A stretch of 22,747 bases of DNA, taken from positions 1 to 22,747 of the IMG/VR virus record IMGVR_UViG_3300034082_000141. The stretch is one strand, 5' to 3'. Both the position numbers and the translations under genes were made by a program. Source of the DNA: a virus. Shown here one piece after another: positions 6,619 to 16,726 of the stretch; within the stretch, counting starts at the first letter, position 1; every line of letters starts with the position of its first letter. The notes beneath the pieces were generated by a model. It ran no database searches and had not been told where the DNA came from. It saw only the letters and a program-made list of their open reading frames with translations.

Positions 6619-7506
6619 ATGAGTAATGATCTTGCAATGCTTGATGTTGGCCTTCCTGCGCACTTGAAGGCTTTGGAGCTTGATGACACAACTAAAGCCC
6701 TTATGGGTGGTGGCGGTGGTGGAAGCAAGCGTATCTCTATTGAAGGTGGTGTATGGCGTCTACTGGTTAACGGTAAAGAGATTGCTCAAAAGGAAGAGCG
6801 TAACCTCAATGCAGTTATCATAGCGGCTTCACCAAAAGTATCACGCACGTTCTATGCAGGTGTGTACAAGAAGGGTCAGTCCACTGCCCCCGACTGTTGG
6901 TCTGCTAACGGCGACTACCCTGACAGCACAGTTAAAGAGCCACAAGCTAAGTCGTGTGCTACATGCCCACAAAACGTAAGTGGTTCAGGTAGTGGCACTT
7001 CAAAAGCTTGCCGCTTCTCTCAGCGTCTTGCTGTGGTTCTGGACAACGACATCGGCGGCGATGTATTCCAACTAACCCTACCATCAACATCAATCTTTGG
7101 TGAAGGTGAGGCAGGTAAGTGGCCTCTGCAGATGTACGCTAAGATGATTGGTAGCAAGGGTGTGCCTATCACTGCAGTTGTAACTGAGATGCGCTTTGAT
7201 ACAGCGTCGTCTACACCTAAGATTACGTTCAAGCCATTACGCTTCTTGGAGATCAATGAAATCCAAACAGCTATTGAACAGGGTAAGTCAGACGCTGCAC
7301 AGAAAGCAATCACTATGACTGTCGCACAAGCTGACGGTGTACAGAAGCTAGCAGCACCCGCACCACAAGCACCTGAAGCAAAAGTCGAAGTCGCACCTGT
7401 TGAAGTTGAGACTGAGCCTGTCAAAGTAACTAAGAAGAAAGAAGAACCAGCACCTAAGAAAGACCTTGGTTCAATTCTTTCCGATTGGGACGATGACGAC
7501 AAATAA
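6619..7506 (+). CDS. probable single-stranded-DNA-binding protein with zinc site
   Basis: Likely phage ssDNA-binding protein, 295 residues. A Gly-rich hinge (MGGGGGGS, 29-36) precedes a beta-rich core (about 38-212) with an OB-like run of strands. Cys93, Cys113, Cys116 and Cys131 could bind zinc, as T4 gp32 does. After residue 240 comes a low-complexity Ala/Pro/Glu/Lys linker, then a hydrophobic-acidic tip, GSILSDWDDDDK. An acidic tail of this kind is the hallmark by which SSB, gp32 and T7 gp2.5 recruit replication partners. The gene sits between a recombination-type protein and the primase-helicase, which fits. ATG 6619 has AGGAGA six bases upstream. Fold assignment is inferred, not matched. 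Confidence 0.65.
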   Translation: MSNDLAMLDVGLPAHLKALELDDTTKALMGGGGGGSKRISIEGGVWRLLVNGKEIAQKEERNLNAVIIAASPKVSRTFYAGVYKKGQSTAPDCWSANGDYPDSTVKEPQAKSCATCPQNVSGSGSGTSKACRFSQRLAVVLDNDIGGDVFQLTLPSTSIFGEGEAGKWPLQMYAKMIGSKGVPITAVVTEMRFDTASSTPKITFKPLRFLEINEIQTAIEQGKSDAAQKAITMTVAQADGVQKLAAPAPQAPEAKVEVAPVEVETEPVKVTKKKEEPAPKKDLGSILSDWDDDDK

Positions 7507-7515
7507 GGGGTTGCT

Positions 7516-7746
7516 ATGTCAAAGGGCTACTTAAGCTCTTTTGTCAATGATGTCAAGGCTGCAGATCAAAAGAAAATTGGTGTGCGCTTTGCTTTGTGTT
7601 GCATCTCTAACGACGTACCTGTAACTGATGTGGCGGAGTACTTCGGGGTTACCCGTATGACCGTATACGCATGGTTTCGTGGTAAAAATAACGTCCCTGA
7701 GAAGCATCATACGAAAATGCAGAAGTTCATTGATAAGCTGAGTTAG
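7516..7746 (+). CDS. small helix-turn-helix protein, 76 aa
   Basis: DNA-binding protein of Cro/XRE size. The helix-turn-helix is clear at about residues 35-56: DVAEYFGVTRMTVYAWFRGK, where the recognition helix is TRMTVYAWFRG. It is followed by a C-terminal helix (KHHTKMQKFIDKL). Possible roles are repressor of an early promoter or a factor binding the structured leader just downstream. Start ATG 7516 is preceded by AAGGGG at 7504-7509. It is separated from the primase-helicase by a 90-base gap that holds the three-way-junction element. Confidence 0.8.
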   Translation: MSKGYLSSFVNDVKAADQKKIGVRFALCCISNDVPVTDVAEYFGVTRMTVYAWFRGKNNVPEKHHTKMQKFIDKLS

Positions 7747-7752
7747 TGTTGT

Positions 7753-7835
7753 AGCAGGAAGAGCTAGGTTAGCTACCGAAGAGGGTGATGCCGTCCACCC
7801 CTGCTCTATCCTTTTTAATGACGGACAAGGACGGC
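7753..7835 (+). promoter_or_regulatory. three-way-junction RNA with SD-pairing loop
   Basis: Candidate cis-acting RNA in the leader of the primase-helicase gene. All helices are perfect Watson-Crick: H1 AGCAG 7753-7757 with CTGCT 7801-7805; H2 AGCTA 7762-7766 with TAGCT 7770-7774; H3 GGGTG 7783-7787 with CACCC 7796-7800, directly abutting H1. Loop H3 bases GCCGTC (7790-7795, plus C7796) are complementary to GGACGGC 7829-7835, which overlaps the AAGGA ribosome binding site (7827-7831) of ATG 7837. An earlier GACGG copy (7820-7824) could compete. Junction strands GGAAG (7757-7761) and ACCGAAG (7775-7781) resemble glutamine-riboswitch core strands. A weak T tract lies at 7812-7816. Confidence 0.45.
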
Positions 7836-7836
7836 T

Positions 7837-10695
7837 ATGTTAACGACGAATGAATTCCTGTCAGCAGTACTGCCTCCAAGCGGTATGTACTGTGTGGTGG
7901 GTCTAAAAAAAGATGAGAAGCCAAAACAAAAGTTTGTAGAGTCAATAGAAAAAGTAGAAGAGCTAGCCAAAGAATTAGTAGCAGTGCAGTACGATGCGTA
8001 CTTTGCACTCGCCTCGTTTACGGATGTTGCCGAAGGGCGCACCTCGAAGAACGCTGCGCAATTCAAATCTTATTTTCTTGACCTAGACTGCGGACTTGGT
8101 AAACCCTACGCCGATCAAGCTGAAGGGCTGTCGGCACTTAAACAATTTGTTAAAACCACAGGACTACCAAAGCCTACTATAGTTAACTCAGGACGTGGGG
8201 TTCATGCGTACTGGGTACTGGAAACATCAGTTGAACGTGATATTTGGAAGCCGTTAGCAGAACGACTCAAAGCCCTGTGTGAGAAGCACAAGCTCCATGC
8301 TGATCCTGCAGTGACCGCCGACTCTGCTCGCATACTGCGTGTGCCCGGCACATTTAATTATAAGAACCCTGAGTTCCCACTAGAAGTGCAAGTGCTTGCT
8401 GTAGGTGCGCCTGTATCTAACAGTGTGTTCGAAGCACTCGAAGCCCCAGAGGTTGATGTGTTTGCTGGTATGAGCGGGCAACCGTTTGTTCCTAGGCAGA
8501 TGGATCCTCTTACGCTTGCGTTGATGGGCAACAACCAGTCTAAGTTTAAGACCATACTTATCAAGAGCGTGGAAGCCGAGGGTAAGGGCTGTAACCAGAT
8601 ATTGCAGATATACGAAGCTCAGGATAATATTGAGGAACCCCTCTGGCGGGCAGGGCTTTCTATCGCCCAACATTGTGTAGACCGAGATAAGGCTATCCAT
8701 GCAATATCCAACAAACACCCAAATTACTCAGCAGCGGAGACTGAAAGAAAGGCTAACGAGACTCGAGGCCCGTACACCTGCATCACTTTTAGAAAGCTCA
8801 ATGCAGCCGGTTGCGAAGGATGTACCCACAAGATTTCGTCGCCTATTATGTTGGGCAAAGAGTTTGCTGAAGCGACAGAAGAAGACAACATAGTTGAAGT
8901 CCCTGAGACTGAGACCGCCCCTGCACAAACCGTAGTCATACCCAAGTACCCTTTTCCGTTTGTACGAGGCAAAGTCGGTGGCGTATATATCCGTAAGAAA
9001 GACGAAGAGCTTGGTGACATGGAAGAGCTTATCTATCCTTACGACTTCTATGTAGTCAAGCACATGAAAGACCCCGATGTAGGCGTGACACTACTCATGC
9101 GTCTGCACCTACCTAAAGACGGTATCCAAGAGTTCATCATGCCGTTGGCTGCGGTGATGGCTAAGGACAGATTCAGAGACACAATCGCATCGCATGGCAT
9201 TGCCGTGCTAGGTAAAAAACAGGATTTACTAATGGCTTACATAACACGGTGGGTGGAGGAGCTACAAGCTTCCAACGAAGCAGAGAAAGCACGTAGACAG
9301 TTTGGTTGGTTGCCAGACGACTCCGCGTTTATTCTTGGTGATAGAGAGATCAGAACTACCGAAATTAAATACAGCCCACCTACTGCAACGACGCTACCGC
9401 TTATACCTACGTTTCGCCCAAGGGGGGACTTCCATATATGGAAGGACGTAGTGTCTTACTACCGCACCGAAGGTCTGCAAGCTAAAGCGTTTGCATTGTT
9501 CTTGGGGTTTGGTAACGTCCTACTGAAGCACACAGCAGTGAAAGGATACTTGCTAAGCCTTAAGTCACAAGGTTCAGGTTCAGGTAAGACCACATTACTC
9601 AACGCAATCGGTAGTATCTACGGTAACCCGACCGAGCAGCTTATGCTTGTGAAGGATACCTATAATCAAAAACTGCAGCGTATTGGAACGTACCAACACA
9701 TACCAATCTTGTTCGACGAGATGACAAACATGGCACCAGACCAAAAGTCTAACCTTGTGTACGACATCACTGAAGGTCGTGGCAAGAACCGCATGAGGTC
9801 ACAAGACAATTCTGAACGCATTAACCTGACGCACTGGGCAACCGGACTAATCACAACATCTAACCGTTCTTTGCGTGACGACTTACTTTCGATCAAGAGC
9901 TTTCCTGAAGCGGAGTTGATGCGCCTACTGGAGATGCACATTGCCAACGACCCCAACGGAGACACAGCTTGGTCACGCACACACTTCGGTCGCCTAGAGC
10001 ATAACTACGGACATGCTATTGTGCCGTTCGTGCAGTATGTATCTACGCACCTGCCTGAAGTTATAGAGTTCATGGGTAAGATTCAGTCAAAGATTGAGCA
10101 TGCGGCTGATATGCAGAACTCTGAACGCTTTTGGTCGGTGATGGCTACGCTCGCTATAGTAGGCGGCATGATTGCAAACAGACTGAACATCATTGATATC
10201 CCACACAAACCCGTGTTGGACTTTATCGTTAGCCACATCAAGGACGCTAGAGTTCAGAACCGCATCATGCTGTTGGACAATAGCGACTTCTTGGGCAGTT
10301 TCTTGCAGCGTAAGTTCCACGAGATTTTGGTCATCAACGGCTCAAAAGATGGTAAGACCGGACTAGAAACTGGCCCGATTCGTGAACCTCGTGGAGCGCT
10401 GTCGGTGCGGTATGAGCCTGATACAAAACTTTTGTATGTGGTGTCTAAGGTTTACCGTGAGGAGTGCAACAAGGGTCAGTTGAACTTTGAAGAATCACTA
10501 GGGATGTACAAGAAGAACAAGGCTTTCCTTGGCACGAAGCGCAAGCGCATGGCGGCTGGAACAATTATTAACACAGACGTTAACGCACCAGCTCTTGTGT
10601 TCGATACGACTAAGCTATCGTTCTTCCGAGAAGAGGCACTGCTCAATGTTAAAGATTCTGAATCTGACAATACTTATCCCGTGGATGAAACTTGA
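7837..10695 (+). CDS. primase-helicase (PrimPol/RepB-like plus AAA+ DUF927-type)
   Basis: Predicted bifunctional replication enzyme, 952 residues. The N-terminal primase has FLDLD (80-84) as metal-binding acidic residues, SGRGVHAYW (118-126) with His123, and DSARILRVPGT (162-172), the layout of archaeo-eukaryotic/RepB-type primases. A PriCT-like region follows (about 265-340) with Cys315, Cys326 and Cys329 and HPNYSAAETERK. Residues 370-540 look like DUF927, leading to the motor: Walker A GSGSGKTT (579-586), Walker B ILFDE (624-628), a sensor-like TTSNRSLRDD (about 673-682). It would prime and unwind the phage origin. The start is ATG 7837 with AAGGA five bases upstream, inside the predicted pseudoknot. 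No intact DnaB-type helicase gene lies nearby. Confidence 0.9.
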   Translation: MLTTNEFLSAVLPPSGMYCVVGLKKDEKPKQKFVESIEKVEELAKELVAVQYDAYFALASFTDVAEGRTSKNAAQFKSYFLDLDCGLGKPYADQAEGLSALKQFVKTTGLPKPTIVNSGRGVHAYWVLETSVERDIWKPLAERLKALCEKHKLHADPAVTADSARILRVPGTFNYKNPEFPLEVQVLAVGAPVSNSVFEALEAPEVDVFAGMSGQPFVPRQMDPLTLALMGNNQSKFKTILIKSVEAEGKGCNQILQIYEAQDNIEEPLWRAGLSIAQHCVDRDKAIHAISNKHPNYSAAETERKANETRGPYTCITFRKLNAAGCEGCTHKISSPIMLGKEFAEATEEDNIVEVPETETAPAQTVVIPKYPFPFVRGKVGGVYIRKKDEELGDMEELIYPYDFYVVKHMKDPDVGVTLLMRLHLPKDGIQEFIMPLAAVMAKDRFRDTIASHGIAVLGKKQDLLMAYITRWVEELQASNEAEKARRQFGWLPDDSAFILGDREIRTTEIKYSPPTATTLPLIPTFRPRGDFHIWKDVVSYYRTEGLQAKAFALFLGFGNVLLKHTAVKGYLLSLKSQGSGSGKTTLLNAIGSIYGNPTEQLMLVKDTYNQKLQRIGTYQHIPILFDEMTNMAPDQKSNLVYDITEGRGKNRMRSQDNSERINLTHWATGLITTSNRSLRDDLLSIKSFPEAELMRLLEMHIANDPNGDTAWSRTHFGRLEHNYGHAIVPFVQYVSTHLPEVIEFMGKIQSKIEHAADMQNSERFWSVMATLAIVGGMIANRLNIIDIPHKPVLDFIVSHIKDARVQNRIMLLDNSDFLGSFLQRKFHEILVINGSKDGKTGLETGPIREPRGALSVRYEPDTKLLYVVSKVYREECNKGQLNFEESLGMYKKNKAFLGTKRKRMAAGTIINTDVNAPALVFDTTKLSFFREEALLNVKDSESDNTYPVDET

Positions 10696-10893: not shown

Positions 10894-10920
10894 CCCCGCC
10901 CTTGTGCGGGGTTCTTTTTT
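10894..10920 (+). terminator. intrinsic terminator of rightward operon
   Basis: CCCCGC (10894-10899) and GCGGGG (10906-10911) form a G+C-only stem around CCTTGT, extendable by one A-T pair (10893 with 10912), followed by TTCTTTTTT. The T tract is on the plus strand only, so it should stop rightward transcription; leftward RNA would lack a U tract. The last bases overlap the stop codon of the convergent giant gene. Confidence 0.87.
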
Positions 10921-13900
10921 AATAGCCCGCCATATTTCTTAGCTTGTATACATTCTGCAACATGCGGTCTTCTGCAGCTTTGAGACGTTGGATTTCAGCA
11001 GTCTTTTGCTCAGCGTTCATACGACCCTCGGGCAATGCACGAATCTGGTTCTCGTAATCCCGCAACTTAGCTAGCTGGTTACCAATAGCATTGACTTGAT
11101 TCTGAAGCTTGAGCAAAGGTAATTTCTCCTGCATATATTCCCGTGCTTTTTCTGGCGACTCTTTTTTGTAGGCGTTAAGCGTCTTAACCGTGCGAGCTAC
11201 TTCTTCTCGCAATTCATAGAAGTCGTTCTTCATAGCGTTGCCATACTCACTGGCAAAGAATGTACCCATGCCCGGAATCTGGCGCAACACATCACGGTCA
11301 CCTTTCTCAGGCTTAGGTACACCGGAGTCACTCATTAAGGCGTTAGTACCAAGCAGCATAAGCCCACCGACCGATCCCGCATATCCTTTAATCAGGTGGT
11401 CAATTTCTACAGGTGCCAAGATACCAAACTTACCCAAGAGCTTCCCAAGTTCTGAAGTCGATGCTGTGTACTGAGCTTCCTTATCTCGCCCAGCAATACC
11501 TTTACCAACCAAGTCTCGACCAGTAAAGAAGTTGTGGTTTATGCCGACTTCAACCGCTGGCTTAATAAACTGAGGTACAACTGTTGGGCTTAATATGGCA
11601 TTGGCTAGAGCTTCTGACATCGCACGGCGTACCTTCTTACCATCCGTGAATCCGTTGTCAGTCATCATTAAGTACGAGTACTCAGCCGCAAGTTTAGGGA
11701 ACAGCGTCATGTCGCTACGCAACGGCAACATAAATCCTGTGCCGGGAATCAACAGGTGCTTGTCCCGTACTTGAGGATCCATCTTCTCGTATTCCTCGTC
11801 ATCTGCAACCATAGCGGAGTACAGGAACGCCAACGTAGTCACCATCGCAGCGTTAGTAATCAGTGTCCTATAAGCCGCCGCACGTTCGGTAGGTGTAATG
11901 CTACGACCAGCCAGTACTTTAGCCGTGACGTTCATAGCCTGTAGGTATGCGCCAAAAAACGGCACCAACTGCTTACCTACGTTAACGATGCCGTTAGCAC
12001 CCGAACGCTTAAAGTTAATGATCTCAAACGCCCGCTCCATCGCAGCAGACTCATCTCCACCGACCACTGACCCATCCTTCTGACGCTTACCGCCTGTTTC
12101 AAGCAGTGTGCGGTTGTACAGCGCTTGACGCACTGCGTTGTCAGACGCCATAGAGAATTTCTCTAGCGGGGTAAGCAGCTTTTGGAATGCCGACTTCTTT
12201 TTTAGTCCAGTAGCAATCTCTAAGTTGTTGGTAGAGATAGCAGACATGTAGTCGTTGATACCCACAACACCCGCACGGGACAAATACTTACCTGTAGCGT
12301 TAGTACCAAACAAGATGCCCATGAACTGACGAACAACCTCAATTGGAATCATCAACGGGTTCTTAAGCCCAGAGGTAAGCATCGCAGCAAACGAGTCTTG
12401 GGACAACTGACTTACTGAGAACAACGGGTTTAACACAATCGACTGACGCAAGAAAGTTGTAGCCTTAGCTACGTCTTTTAGTATGGGAAGAGCTACAGTC
12501 TCCATACCCTCGAACGCATGTACAAACAACGGATCGGCAAACTTAACACGCTTGCGTTGCCCGTTCTCCCACATACTCACTACGTTGTCACTACGCTTGA
12601 CCGACTCATCCTGCCTGATATCTTCAACTTGATCGGGCATGATCTCTTTAGCTGTGTTGTACATATTCAAGGCAGTACGGTTACGCACAGCACGGGACAC
12701 GGTGTATGTTGTCCAGAGTGCCATGTTGCCAAATACGTCAGCTACAGGTTGATCGCTACCTTTGATCTTAAAGTTCTTTGCAAAGTCAATGAAGCCGTTG
12801 GGATACTTGCGAGGACCAGCACCTGTCTCTAATTGGTCTTCACGGTAGAAAGGCACAAAGTCCATGTACTTCAGCAAGTCATTAGCTTGCTCACGGCTAT
12901 ACAAACCATTCTCTACCGCAACATCCATAGCGTTTGCACGGATGCCATTCCACATAGCTTGTACGTCACGCAACCCATCAACCATATCAAATAGTTTCTT
13001 ACCGGCGTCTACTTGTTCTTTAGTCATGTGACTATAGAACTCTGGCTTTGACTTAGCTAAGCCTTCAACTCGCTCCGCAATAAATGCGGTGTTTGCATAG
13101 TTGCGCAGCTCAGCATCAGTCAGCCCATTTTTCTTGGCGACATCAGACATAAGCTTCATCATGTTCTTCCAACTATCCTTATCCTCAGTAGCGAAGAACT
13201 TATATGATTTTGAATTGTACTTAAGCGCACCATGTTCCAAGAACTGCATAGCCAGTGCATCGGAGTGAAGAGCTTGAGACGTACTGATTTTAGTCATTAT
13301 GTCTTTAATGACGTTCCAATCTTTTTTATCTTTACCTAGTTCGCGGCGAATAGCGTTGTTAAGCCCAGCATCAAATGATAGCGCACCCGTCTCAAACTTA
13401 TCGAGCCAAGTAGTTACCCGCCGAGTCGCCTCTGCCTCGCTAGCATTACCATTTTCTTTAAGCGCTGAACCAACGGGGCTTGGGTTTTGCTTGGTAACAT
13501 CTCTACCTCCAGCGGCTTTAAATTGAGCTTCAAGTTCAGACTTACGTATTACAGCAGCGGCAGGGGGCGCTTTGGCAGTACCTGAAACTTCTTGTTGGTA
13601 CCCACGACCAATGTTCATCGCACGTTCTACGTTGATGATTGCTTCAGCCAACGCATTGTTTGTATCTGACAAGCCAAGCAACTGCATAACCATCTTGGCA
13701 AATTCTTGGAATACATTGCGTTTCTTGTACGGTATTTGTTTGAGAGCCTCTTGAAACTCTGAGTTTGACATAGCTTCTGCCGCAAACTCAGTCAGGCTAG
13801 TCATACCATACTGCTCAGCCAACTCCGGATGATTCTGTAGTAAATGGTTATAAAGATCTTGTAGTTCGGCTAGTGCTTTGTTACTTATAGCACCGCGCTC

Positions 13901-16726
13901 AAACTCAGTAATCAAAGCGTGCATGTACCCATGCACTACCTCATGCAAGACGGTATGGGAATCTACTTGACCTTCTGCAATCCGAACGGTATCTGTGAAT
14001 GGATCATATTGTCCATCAGCTTGCCCCAACTGATCTTTAGGTACTATCTCTATCTTAGGTAATGAATAACGCTTGTTGCTCATCAGACGTCTAGCAATAG
14101 CACGCTCAAGCGATGAGTAGTTGGAACTATTAGCTATTTCATTTAAAGCACGAGCGGTGCTGCCACGATATGCAGCAGCAAGTAACGCAGGAGAAGTAGT
14201 CCCATACAGTACGCGACGGACTTCAGGCGGAGTCTTAGCGCCACTTGCATAGTCCCTAACCTGATACTGATCGGCGTTTAGTTTAGCCAAATAGTCTTTA
14301 GCCTTGCGTTCTTGAGCTTTTAGTGACTCGACTTGCGCATTAACATTAGCTTTCTCTTCCGCGCTAAGAGCTTTGTATACGGGGTTTGCTCGACGCATGT
14401 TTTCTTTAGCGTATAAGTCTGCAGCCAAATACCTAAGCATCTGGTTACGATCACCGTTTACTCCCGCTAAATACTCAGCTTCAAATCGAGCAGCGCCTTT
14501 AAGGTTCTTATCTATTGCAACGGGTGCAGCTTTTGCTCCTCGTACGTCAGATTTAGTTCCTCCAGCAACACCAGCCAATCCTGTTGGTCTAGTGTCTTGA
14601 ACTCCTTGGGCGGCACTCGTTTGCTGGGTGGTTGGTCCAACGCCCACACCAGCCACTCCCACGCCTTGCTCACCTGTTGGTCGTCCAGCTCTTGGCTCAG
14701 CGGCAGTTGGTACTCCTGCGGGTTGCCCAGTAGGAACATTTTGTGTCTCCTGTGTAGGTGGAGTCTCGGTAACTGGTATCTCTTGCGCTTGACGTAACCT
14801 AGCACTGAACGCGTCTTGTAATGCGTTCTGAAAATCTCTGGCCTTGCCTGCCTTACGCTCGCGCTCAGCCGGAAGCTTTTGCTTAGGTACTTTAATACCT
14901 TGTGTTTGTGCAAGCTGCGCACCAAAAGCATTTTCCAATTGCGAAGTCATAGCCGCTTTGCTTTGCTTTGCACTGACGGGTTTCCTACGCAGTTTCAGTC
15001 TATCTTGTTCAGCAAAGAACGGGCTACCCAAAAACTGTTCAATCTTACCCGCAACACCTTCTTGTGTAGTGCGTTCCGCAAATTGAGACAGAGCCTCTCG
15101 TACTTCAGCGCGTTGTTTAGGATCTGTTAAGTCCTTACCTTCAATGGCGTTACGTACTTTCTTATTACCACCAGAAATACCAAGAGCTTTAGTAAGATCA
15201 CGATTGATAACCAATGCTTCAGCAGGCGCAGTTTGTTCAGTAATAGCCGTCGGTTGTGCAGCACCAACACCGGGAAGTCCTAATTGTCCTTCTTGGTCAG
15301 TAAGAGGAAGTGCAAGTTGACCGGGTAATGCTTGAGGGGCGCCCTCTTGTTGTACTTCACCGGTCTGTTGTTGATCTTGTGGGGGTATGTAATCCCCTAA
15401 CAAGTCTGGGTAAGCTTGAGCAAACGCAGACATCTTTGCTTTCCGGGCATCAACTTTGTCCCGCGCAGCAGCAGCTCGTGCTGCGGATGCCTGTGCTTTA
15501 ACTTTAAGCTCTTCAACGGTATTAGCTAGCTCAGCAAACGCTTGGGTATTAGTAGGCCCACCACGCTCAACCCAACCTCTATGGCTAATCTCTGCATTAG
15601 CAAGGGCATTAGCATCGGCTCTAGCTTGTTCGTCTGCAAGGCGGGTAACTTCTTCACCTTCTAGAGCTAACTGTCTTTGGTTCTCTATCTCGGCAAGTGC
15701 GGCTTGACGTTGTGATTCATTTCGCGCACTGACTCCACCAGCTACACCACCGAACAGACCGCCACCAAGGGCGCCCATACCAATAGACTCGCCAAGACCT
15801 TGCGTAAGACTGACATCAGGAAATATTTCTTGCTGAGCTAAGTTAGATACAAACTTACCGCCGCCTTCTTCAATACCTTCACTACCAGCTTCACCAAAGA
15901 ACCCACGCAACATACCGCCGGTGCTAGGCGCACCCTTACCAGCCAGCGCACGTTCAATAGACCGACCACCCGGCAGAGCAGCGGTGCCTAGAGAAATACC
16001 AGCAGCTTGCAACGCAGCTTGACGACCCTGTCCCAGAGCAATACGGTTACGCTCTTCTACGGGCATATCAGGTTGGTCTTTCTCTAAGCGCTTATATATT
16101 GCTTCGTATGTATCAGCGCCTACATCGGTACCTTGCATTACAGCACCCGTACCAACAGCGCCTGCAACACCAGCTTTACCGATAACGTCATCTGCTGCAT
16201 TACGCATCAACAACTTAACGCCGCCACGGGCGAGTAGACCACCACCCATAGAACCAAACAAGTTAGGTACTTGCTCAGCAAAAAAGGAAGTAAGTAGTGC
16301 TGGGTCTTTAACTGTTTCTAAGAAGGCTACACCAGCTTGCTTGGCTACGTCCATAGCCGTGCCTTCACCTTCAGCGGCAGCAATCTTCTGGCTACGCAGT
16401 TGTTCCTTAGCTTTGAGTACAGGCGACTTTAAACCTTGACCGTATTCTTCTACGGTCTTACCAATGCCTTGCAAGCCGGTAGGTGTCTCTTCACGTTCAG
16501 TAAGACCCGTTAGCTGACCGATTTGGCCCGGCAATTGTGCAAGACCACCAAGCCCGCTGATAAACCCACCACCTATATCAGTGAGTGCTTCACCCCAAGA
16601 GCGTTTTTGAGTAGCGGCAAGTTCTGGGAAGGCCGCCATAATCTTTTTGCGGGCATCTGCTTGAGATACATCATCAGGAATGTTTTCTACAACATATCCA
16701 TTAGGTAGCTGTACATCATACGGCAT
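10919..16726 (-). CDS. giant ejection/internal virion protein with HEXXH metallopeptidase and LPD38-like region, 1935 aa
   Basis: Probable internal-core protein ejected with the genome, positional counterpart of T7 gp16 but longer (gp16 is about 1318 aa). N-terminus PNGYVVENIPDDVSQADARK is a pattern of such virion proteins. Several Gly/Ala-rich hydrophobic stretches occur between about 50 and 340. A disordered Gln/Ala/Pro region follows. Zinc-peptidase motif HEVVH at 928-932, with Glu980 or Glu984 in SLTEFAAEAMS as a likely third ligand. Downstream (about 1480-1790) are hydrophobic segments like large polyvalent protein domain LPD38, including KRSGANGIVNVGKQLVPFF. The C-terminus is coiled coil. 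I see no lytic transglycosylase motif. AAGG lies about nine bases before ATG. Confidence 0.85.
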   Translation of the reverse strand: MPYDVQLPNGYVVENIPDDVSQADARKKIMAAFPELAATQKRSWGEALTDIGGGFISGLGGLAQLPGQIGQLTGLTEREETPTGLQGIGKTVEEYGQGLKSPVLKAKEQLRSQKIAAAEGEGTAMDVAKQAGVAFLETVKDPALLTSFFAEQVPNLFGSMGGGLLARGGVKLLMRNAADDVIGKAGVAGAVGTGAVMQGTDVGADTYEAIYKRLEKDQPDMPVEERNRIALGQGRQAALQAAGISLGTAALPGGRSIERALAGKGAPSTGGMLRGFFGEAGSEGIEEGGGKFVSNLAQQEIFPDVSLTQGLGESIGMGALGGGLFGGVAGGVSARNESQRQAALAEIENQRQLALEGEEVTRLADEQARADANALANAEISHRGWVERGGPTNTQAFAELANTVEELKVKAQASAARAAAARDKVDARKAKMSAFAQAYPDLLGDYIPPQDQQQTGEVQQEGAPQALPGQLALPLTDQEGQLGLPGVGAAQPTAITEQTAPAEALVINRDLTKALGISGGNKKVRNAIEGKDLTDPKQRAEVREALSQFAERTTQEGVAGKIEQFLGSPFFAEQDRLKLRRKPVSAKQSKAAMTSQLENAFGAQLAQTQGIKVPKQKLPAERERKAGKARDFQNALQDAFSARLRQAQEIPVTETPPTQETQNVPTGQPAGVPTAAEPRAGRPTGEQGVGVAGVGVGPTTQQTSAAQGVQDTRPTGLAGVAGGTKSDVRGAKAAPVAIDKNLKGAARFEAEYLAGVNGDRNQMLRYLAADLYAKENMRRANPVYKALSAEEKANVNAQVESLKAQERKAKDYLAKLNADQYQVRDYASGAKTPPEVRRVLYGTTSPALLAAAYRGSTARALNEIANSSNYSSLERAIARRLMSNKRYSLPKIEIVPKDQLGQADGQYDPFTDTVRIAEGQVDSHTVLHEVVHGYMHALITEFERGAISNKALAELQDLYNHLLQNHPELAEQYGMTSLTEFAAEAMSNSEFQEALKQIPYKKRNVFQEFAKMVMQLLGLSDTNNALAEAIINVERAMNIGRGYQQEVSGTAKAPPAAAVIRKSELEAQFKAAGGRDVTKQNPSPVGSALKENGNASEAEATRRVTTWLDKFETGALSFDAGLNNAIRRELGKDKKDWNVIKDIMTKISTSQALHSDALAMQFLEHGALKYNSKSYKFFATEDKDSWKNMMKLMSDVAKKNGLTDAELRNYANTAFIAERVEGLAKSKPEFYSHMTKEQVDAGKKLFDMVDGLRDVQAMWNGIRANAMDVAVENGLYSREQANDLLKYMDFVPFYREDQLETGAGPRKYPNGFIDFAKNFKIKGSDQPVADVFGNMALWTTYTVSRAVRNRTALNMYNTAKEIMPDQVEDIRQDESVKRSDNVVSMWENGQRKRVKFADPLFVHAFEGMETVALPILKDVAKATTFLRQSIVLNPLFSVSQLSQDSFAAMLTSGLKNPLMIPIEVVRQFMGILFGTNATGKYLSRAGVVGINDYMSAISTNNLEIATGLKKKSAFQKLLTPLEKFSMASDNAVRQALYNRTLLETGGKRQKDGSVVGGDESAAMERAFEIINFKRSGANGIVNVGKQLVPFFGAYLQAMNVTAKVLAGRSITPTERAAAYRTLITNAAMVTTLAFLYSAMVADDEEYEKMDPQVRDKHLLIPGTGFMLPLRSDMTLFPKLAAEYSYLMMTDNGFTDGKKVRRAMSEALANAILSPTVVPQFIKPAVEVGINHNFFTGRDLVGKGIAGRDKEAQYTASTSELGKLLGKFGILAPVEIDHLIKGYAGSVGGLMLLGTNALMSDSGVPKPEKGDRDVLRQIPGMGTFFASEYGNAMKNDFYELREEVARTVKTLNAYKKESPEKAREYMQEKLPLLKLQNQVNAIGNQLAKLRDYENQIRALPEGRMNAEQKTAEIQRLKAAEDRMLQNVYKLRNMAGY

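Follow-up and report, generated by a model that had tools for sequence, protein, structure and literature searches.

Genomic setting and fold of the leader

The window, by which we mean the whole 22,747-nucleotide stretch analysed here, is a virus contig whose left half contains a block of replication genes on the + strand. This block encodes DNA polymerase A, a PD-(D/E)XK nuclease, a SNF2-type helicase, a 76-aa helix-turn-helix protein (7516–7746, +; its matches to HTH_23 and HTH_3 lie below the curated cut-off) and, as its last gene, a 952-aa protein (7837–10695, +) with a primase-like match at its N-terminus and a DUF927/helicase-like region. A 295-aa conserved protein matching phrog_27714, of unknown function, is encoded directly 5' of the helix-turn-helix gene (6619–7503), and the virion block includes a 1935-aa protein, encoded on the – strand (10919–16726), that matches only PHROGs of unknown function. 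The 90-base gap ahead of the 952-aa protein gene, the putative target of control, contains a leader RNA element that is real and conserved.

The leader, also on the + strand, forms a three-way junction of helices P1, P2 and P3, with unpaired strands UA (7765–7766), GAAGA (7778–7782) and CU (7801–7802) at the junction; UA is kept in the alignment of homologous leaders and was built into the search pattern for the broader scans, and GAAGA and CU are identified by both the Rfam match and that alignment. P1 pairs GGAAGAGC (7757–7764) with GCUCU-A-UCC (7803–7811), in which A7808 is bulged. P2 is the hairpin GGU-UAGCU-ACC (7767–7777), with its stem at 7767–7769/7775–7777 and a loop (7770–7774) that holds the self-complementary AGCU, and P3 pairs GGGUG (7783–7787) with CACCC (7796–7800) beneath loop L3, AUGCCGUC (7788–7795). 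A run of five uridines (7812–7816) lies directly 3' of P1. Two tail sites complementary to L3, and thus alternative partners for it, follow: copy 1, GACGG (7820–7824), which is complementary to L3 positions 7791–7795 and which we propose to be a decoy, and copy 2, GGACGGC (7829–7835), which overlaps the Shine-Dalgarno-like AAGGA (7827–7831) and ends 1 nt before the ATG at 7837.

A preliminary description of this locus had noted that GCCGUC in the loop (7790–7795) is the exact complement of GACGGC (7830–7835) at the ribosome binding site, and that GACGG occurs in tandem (7820–7824 and 7830–7834); both statements hold. It had also proposed three simultaneous 5-bp helices, H1 to H3, two of them directly stacked, of which only H3 (GGGUG/CACCC) is part of the conserved fold, where P1 and P2 take the place of the other two and a 2-nt CU linker separates P3 from P1. 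No coordinates had been given for H1 and H2, and we reconstructed them as AGCAG 7753–7757/CTGCT 7801–7805, from the remark that the 3' strand of H3 abuts that of H1, and AGCTA 7762–7766/TAGCT 7770–7774. Reconstructed H1 was rejected, being paired in only 44% of cells among relatives, as was H2, for which relatives show no double changes.

Folding of the single sequence was likewise rejected as proof of structure. The minimum-energy structure of the 55-nt core alone is the three-way junction with two extra pairs inside it, and that predicted for the full leader is a different one, which uses the pairing of L3 with copy 2 and breaks the junction; the full leader is moreover no more stable than its shuffles (z –0.36). 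Some 5-bp hairpin is present in 32% of dinucleotide shuffles of 7753–7835, and one that also has 6 nt of its loop matched exactly within the last 12 nt in only 0.17%, a statistic picked after the feature had been seen. No DNA similar to the window leader was found in cultured phages.

Conservation among homologous leaders

A search with the primase protein recovered 48 loci in viral contigs, with identities down to about 52%, and the RNA element is present at all of them except one (L043). In an alignment of 33 homologous leaders from this set, the pairs of P1, P2, P3 and L3:copy 2 are 96.5% paired (98.1% for P3), a value that falls to 40–54% when the partners are slid by one to three columns (about 47% at one column). 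Double-change cells number 46, compared with 11.3 in shuffles, with both sides changing at nine pairs, and the covariation sits in P1 (four of six pairs) and P3 (four of five). The preliminary description had made its model depend on compensatory changes in homologous leaders, and these are found in P1–P3; they are missing from the loop–ribosome binding site pairing in the primase group, where the five pairs are kept but are nearly invariant and show no double changes. L3 itself is almost fixed across this diverse group, and the UCGCC/GGCGA covariation in L010–L015 represents a single event; the strongest support for the loop–ribosome binding site pairing comes from other lineages.

The exception, L043, encodes a primase relative with 69% identity and has a different leader (L043:4926–5003) with the arrangement GGGGUG...GGGUG(aaguaaacaac)CACCC...CGCCCC followed by AGUGGCUAUG, which may be a replacement element. 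The element is absent before the more distant primases of Pseudomonas phage Rollin, where the gap is 21 nt, and of a Rhizobium phage.

Relationship to int-alpA and other RNA families

The window element belongs to the int-alpA family (RF02996) by both score and structure. The match at 7757–7824 (+) spans the full model (1–71) and scores 37.6 bits against a gathering score of 35.8 (E 4.1e-6), a margin of only 1.8 bits, and the two have in common the three-way junction, the junction strands UA/GAARA/CU and the closing pairs. The Rfam model reaches a 3' tail (...AAgGG) complementary to its own P3 loop (CCuU), and this feature is reproduced in the window by loop CCGUC and the tail GACGG at 7820–7824. 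The window differs in its loop sequence, in having a second site, overlapping the ribosome binding site, beyond the end of the Rfam model, and in its location, which is not between int and alpA but between a helix-turn-helix gene upstream and the primase-helicase gene downstream; we treat location as a naming feature rather than a structural criterion. Examples of int-alpA RNA in E. coli (L169, L170) and a Klebsiella phage (L171) have two tail sites too. Rfam types int-alpA as an sRNA, one paper that names it lists it among the predicted sRNAs of E. coli genomes with function not given, and no published function was found in the literature searched, the founding description apart.

Antisense RNAs and translational riboswitches are the other close parallels. 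The C4 RNA of phages P1 and P7 lies 5' of the gene under its control and pairs with target sites near the ribosome binding site, and the window RNA resembles it in sitting 5' of its putative target gene with sites near the ribosome binding site. Membership of C4 (RF01695) was rejected, however, since no match was seen in window positions 7400–8100 up to an E-value of 5, whereas the P4, N15 and E. coli positive controls do match; P4 and N15 match isrK as well as C4, with no match to int-alpA, and the C4 and int-alpA families do not cross-match at the loci compared. SAM-II and preQ1-II are translational riboswitches with pseudoknots at the ribosome binding site, in which a conserved core is combined with a competing loop or strand that can take up the Shine-Dalgarno sequence. 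The leader RNA shares this arrangement, and comparative sequence points to sequestration of the ribosome binding site by a competing structure as in riboswitches, but Rfam gave no match to a riboswitch family here and, unlike in riboswitches, the core is unchanged across lineages in which both L3 and its targets have been exchanged completely.

Distribution and downstream genes

In viral contigs the core pattern is matched by at least 120 stretches, and in bacterial contigs, taken at one genome per species, by at least 118, although some bacterial matches are possibly due to chance or to phage contigs binned into assemblies. The bacterial matches listed come from records titled Bacillus, Parageobacillus, Streptomyces, Bradyrhizobium, Rhizobium, Planctomycetota, Nitrospirae, Chloroflexota, Gemmatimonadetes and others. 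A parser demanding P1 and P3 retained about 200 distinct instances among the matches listed, or 136 without near-duplicates. Because this wide set was gathered with the core pattern and the parser, conservation of the core within it is by construction; the match between L3 and the tail, the P2 palindromes and the hairpin at the ribosome binding site were not selected for. Of 20 diverse loci among the matches listed, 13 score above the cut-off of the RF02996 model.

Among the matches listed, the genes 3' of the RNA are those of phages and mobile elements. DUF1376 or primosomal proteins lie downstream in 10–11 of 108 and integrases in five, with others encoding HNH endonucleases, AP2 and NUMOD domains, DUF559, a DnaB-type helicase, methylases and the antirepressors Rha, KilA-N and AntA; in Pseudomonas phage YMC11/02/R656 the RNA precedes a Rha gene within a structural operon. 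Since the same RNA precedes so many unrelated gene families, the earlier suggestion that the primase regulates its own synthesis through it is not supported.

In E. coli, a BLAST match to the Rfam consensus is present in 215 of 5,426 genomes. At two loci that were examined, an integrase gene is followed by the RNA, a hypothetical gene and then a helix-turn-helix regulator, and both adjoin yicC; int and alpA are both part of the phage-inducible islands of E. coli (PMC6092414), and these two int-alpA loci are presumably such islands. One E. coli int-alpA locus (L169:4568–5273) also has, next to Icd-like genes, two C4 antisense RNAs together with a match to isrK. We note too that a HEARO RNA shares a contig with one instance and that two type II hammerhead ribozymes are present on another (L105:3952–4181; L254:6394–7779).

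One loop, two competing sites

Among the 136 instances in the matches listed, L3 and its tail sites differ widely, with such sets as CCGUC with GACGG/GGCGG, UUCAUCAC with GUGAUGA/UGAUGG, and CUCCGCCU with AGGCGGA/GGAGC. Two L3-complementary sites, scored as separate exact matches of at least 5 and 4 bp, are nonetheless present in 85% of these non-redundant instances, a share that falls to 19% (maximum 29%) if each instance is given the loop of another. In 97 of the matches listed both sites and a clear start codon could be identified, and the loop footprints of the two sites overlap in 96 of them, such that the two pairings would be mutually exclusive. Copy 1 pairs further toward the 3' side of the loop than copy 2 in 60 of the listed instances, equally in 33, and in the reverse order in four. 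The end of copy 2 lies a median of 7 nt from the start codon, with 95% falling within 0–15 nt. The overlap of the footprints, together with the position of copy 2, suggests that a single loop chooses between a decoy and the ribosome binding site, and both the earlier proposal that the tandem copy is an alternative partner and that of translational control through the loop find support in these comparisons.

Outside the CCGUC-loop group, an extra hairpin of at least 5 bp occurs in the tail of 49% of the listed instances, against 14% in shuffles, and typically holds the Shine-Dalgarno sequence in its loop; in such leaders the pairing of L3 with copy 2 would be a kissing contact. A count intended to compare the two strands gave 52 G-U and 46 A-C cells across the 136 listed instances, over positions that extend beyond the helix ends.

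Action in cis and transcriptional context

Contigs with two or more copies of the RNA mostly show different L3 loops, each fitting its own tail, which favours action in cis. Loops CUUCCGA and UUCCUA are found in L062, CCCUCGC and AUCCACG in L242, and ACUCUGA and ACCUGUCA in L204, where the latter is common to two of the three copies. In these contigs and in L192, with two or three copies each, every copy precedes a different gene and mostly has its own loop, so that each contig apparently represents a single element with a small set of co-regulated genes.

Outside the CCGUC-loop group, a –10 box stands 14–21 nt before the core C (42 sites in the 20-nt zone, 7.7 expected), a placement from which the transcript would start at P1, making the RNA the 5' end of the mRNA. 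No –10 box of its own was found in the CCGUC-loop group, which includes the window phage. In all 23 CCGUC-loop instances an upstream ORF, mostly of 76 aa, ends 11–27 nt before the junction C, and in the window the stop codon of the helix-turn-helix gene lies 18 nt 5' of junction base C7764. The window RNA, having a close upstream stop codon and no –10 box of its own, is thus probably read within an operon. A ribosome terminating at a stop codon so placed would extend as far as the 5' strand of P1, and we infer that it could open P1 in leaders of the CCGUC-loop group.

Self-complementary P2 loops

Self-complementarity over at least 4 nt is seen in 36 of 54 distinct P2 loops among the matches listed, against 15.5 expected and a maximum of 28 in 5,000 shuffles, and over at least 6 nt in 12 of them (1.5 expected). 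The 4–6-mers involved include AGCU, UGCA, GCAUGC, CUGCAG and ACCGGU, and often run right to the loop's 3' end. Such stretches are underrepresented in L3 loops, being seen in 4 of 120 listed compared with 26.9 expected. These patterns suggest kissing dimers formed through the P2 loops, which would explain both the enrichment in P2 and the depletion in L3. In close relatives the palindrome is lost from loops such as UCGCU and UAGCA, and we therefore treat the P2 kissing dimer as a lead only.

A proposed translational switch

We consider it probable that the leader is an int-alpA-class RNA acting in cis to switch translation of the primase-helicase gene, through an exclusive choice by L3 between a decoy and the ribosome binding site. 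The three-way junction, with its nearly invariant core, would hold up L3. Pairing of L3 with copy 1 (7820–7824) would leave the ribosome binding site free, an ON state, and pairing with copy 2 (7829–7835) would cover the Shine-Dalgarno sequence and start region, an OFF state. The conserved core may sense a host metabolite, an ion or a protein, or may set the order of folding, and in the window phage the upstream ribosome may additionally open P1. The sequence comparison shows the junction fold, two sites that are complementary to L3 and overlap on it, the position of copy 2 at the ribosome binding site and, in many relatives, the hairpin there; it is from these that we infer translational control by the pairings, the ON and OFF assignments, and a sensing or folding-order role for the core. 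What the preliminary description observed is in this way partly confirmed, and its interpretation partly supported.

A trans-acting antisense or immunity RNA, like C4 of P1 and P7 or CI of P4, would be cut from the leader, and its L3 would bind other transcripts to control immunity or copy number. Rfam's typing of int-alpA as an sRNA, the great differences of L3 and both its targets between lineages, the presence of the element in phages and islands with C4 and int-alpA near each other in one E. coli island, and P2 loops suited to dimers all agree with such a role. We nevertheless regard it as unlikely, as the target sites lie directly 3' on the same transcript, multi-copy contigs mostly have different loops that each fit their own tail, the L3 sequence hardly varies among the diverse primase relatives, and P4 and N15 match other families. 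Still less probable is a transcription attenuator, in which P1 and the U-run would be a terminator and the pairing of L3 with copy 1 or copy 2 would decide read-through. The run directly after P1 in the window has counterparts (TTTT) in 17 of 23 CCGUC-loop leaders, but in only 32 of 113 other instances among the matches listed, and the compact GC hairpin and U-run of an intrinsic terminator are not seen class-wide; what P1 encloses is a three-way junction of 38 nt, and copy 2 is located at the ribosome binding site.

Two further explanations seem very improbable. An autoregulatory operator bound by the primase itself would account for the leader at all but one of the 48 primase relatives, but the core also precedes DUF1376, HNH, AP2, integrase, Rha, KilA-N, methylase and other genes, and is missing at the distant primases of Rollin and the Rhizobium phage. 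It is equally hard to credit that the element acts as DNA, as a recombination site or an operator palindrome; integrases and HNH genes are frequent neighbours and P2 loops are palindromic, but the element has a fixed orientation toward the downstream gene, its complementarity is placed at the ribosome binding site, the –10 box is set for a transcript starting at P1, and G-U pairs occur within the helices.

These results recast int-alpA, an orphan Rfam family typed as sRNA, as a putative cis-acting translational switch with a decoy, and add to its int/alpA context the replication operons of phages as well as antirepressor and homing endonuclease genes, in records titled Proteobacteria, Bacillus relatives, Streptomyces, Planctomycetota, Nitrospirae and others. 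New here are the second, competing site that overlaps the ribosome binding site, the indications that the RNA acts in cis, the wide variety of genes and hosts, the hairpin at the ribosome binding site and the palindromic P2 loops, part of which may already be in the founding description of int-alpA. Swaps of loops and tails make the proposed switch immediately testable. More speculatively, these RNAs might constitute one widespread and unrecognised class of translational switches in phages and mobile elements of many phyla, set before replication initiators, antirepressors, integrases and homing endonucleases, in which the invariant junction would sense one common intracellular signal and P2 kissing may read the concentration of the RNA's own transcript. 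The constancy of the core, set against the turnover of the pairing sequences, suggests that a common sensor or folding device is at work in phages of distant hosts.
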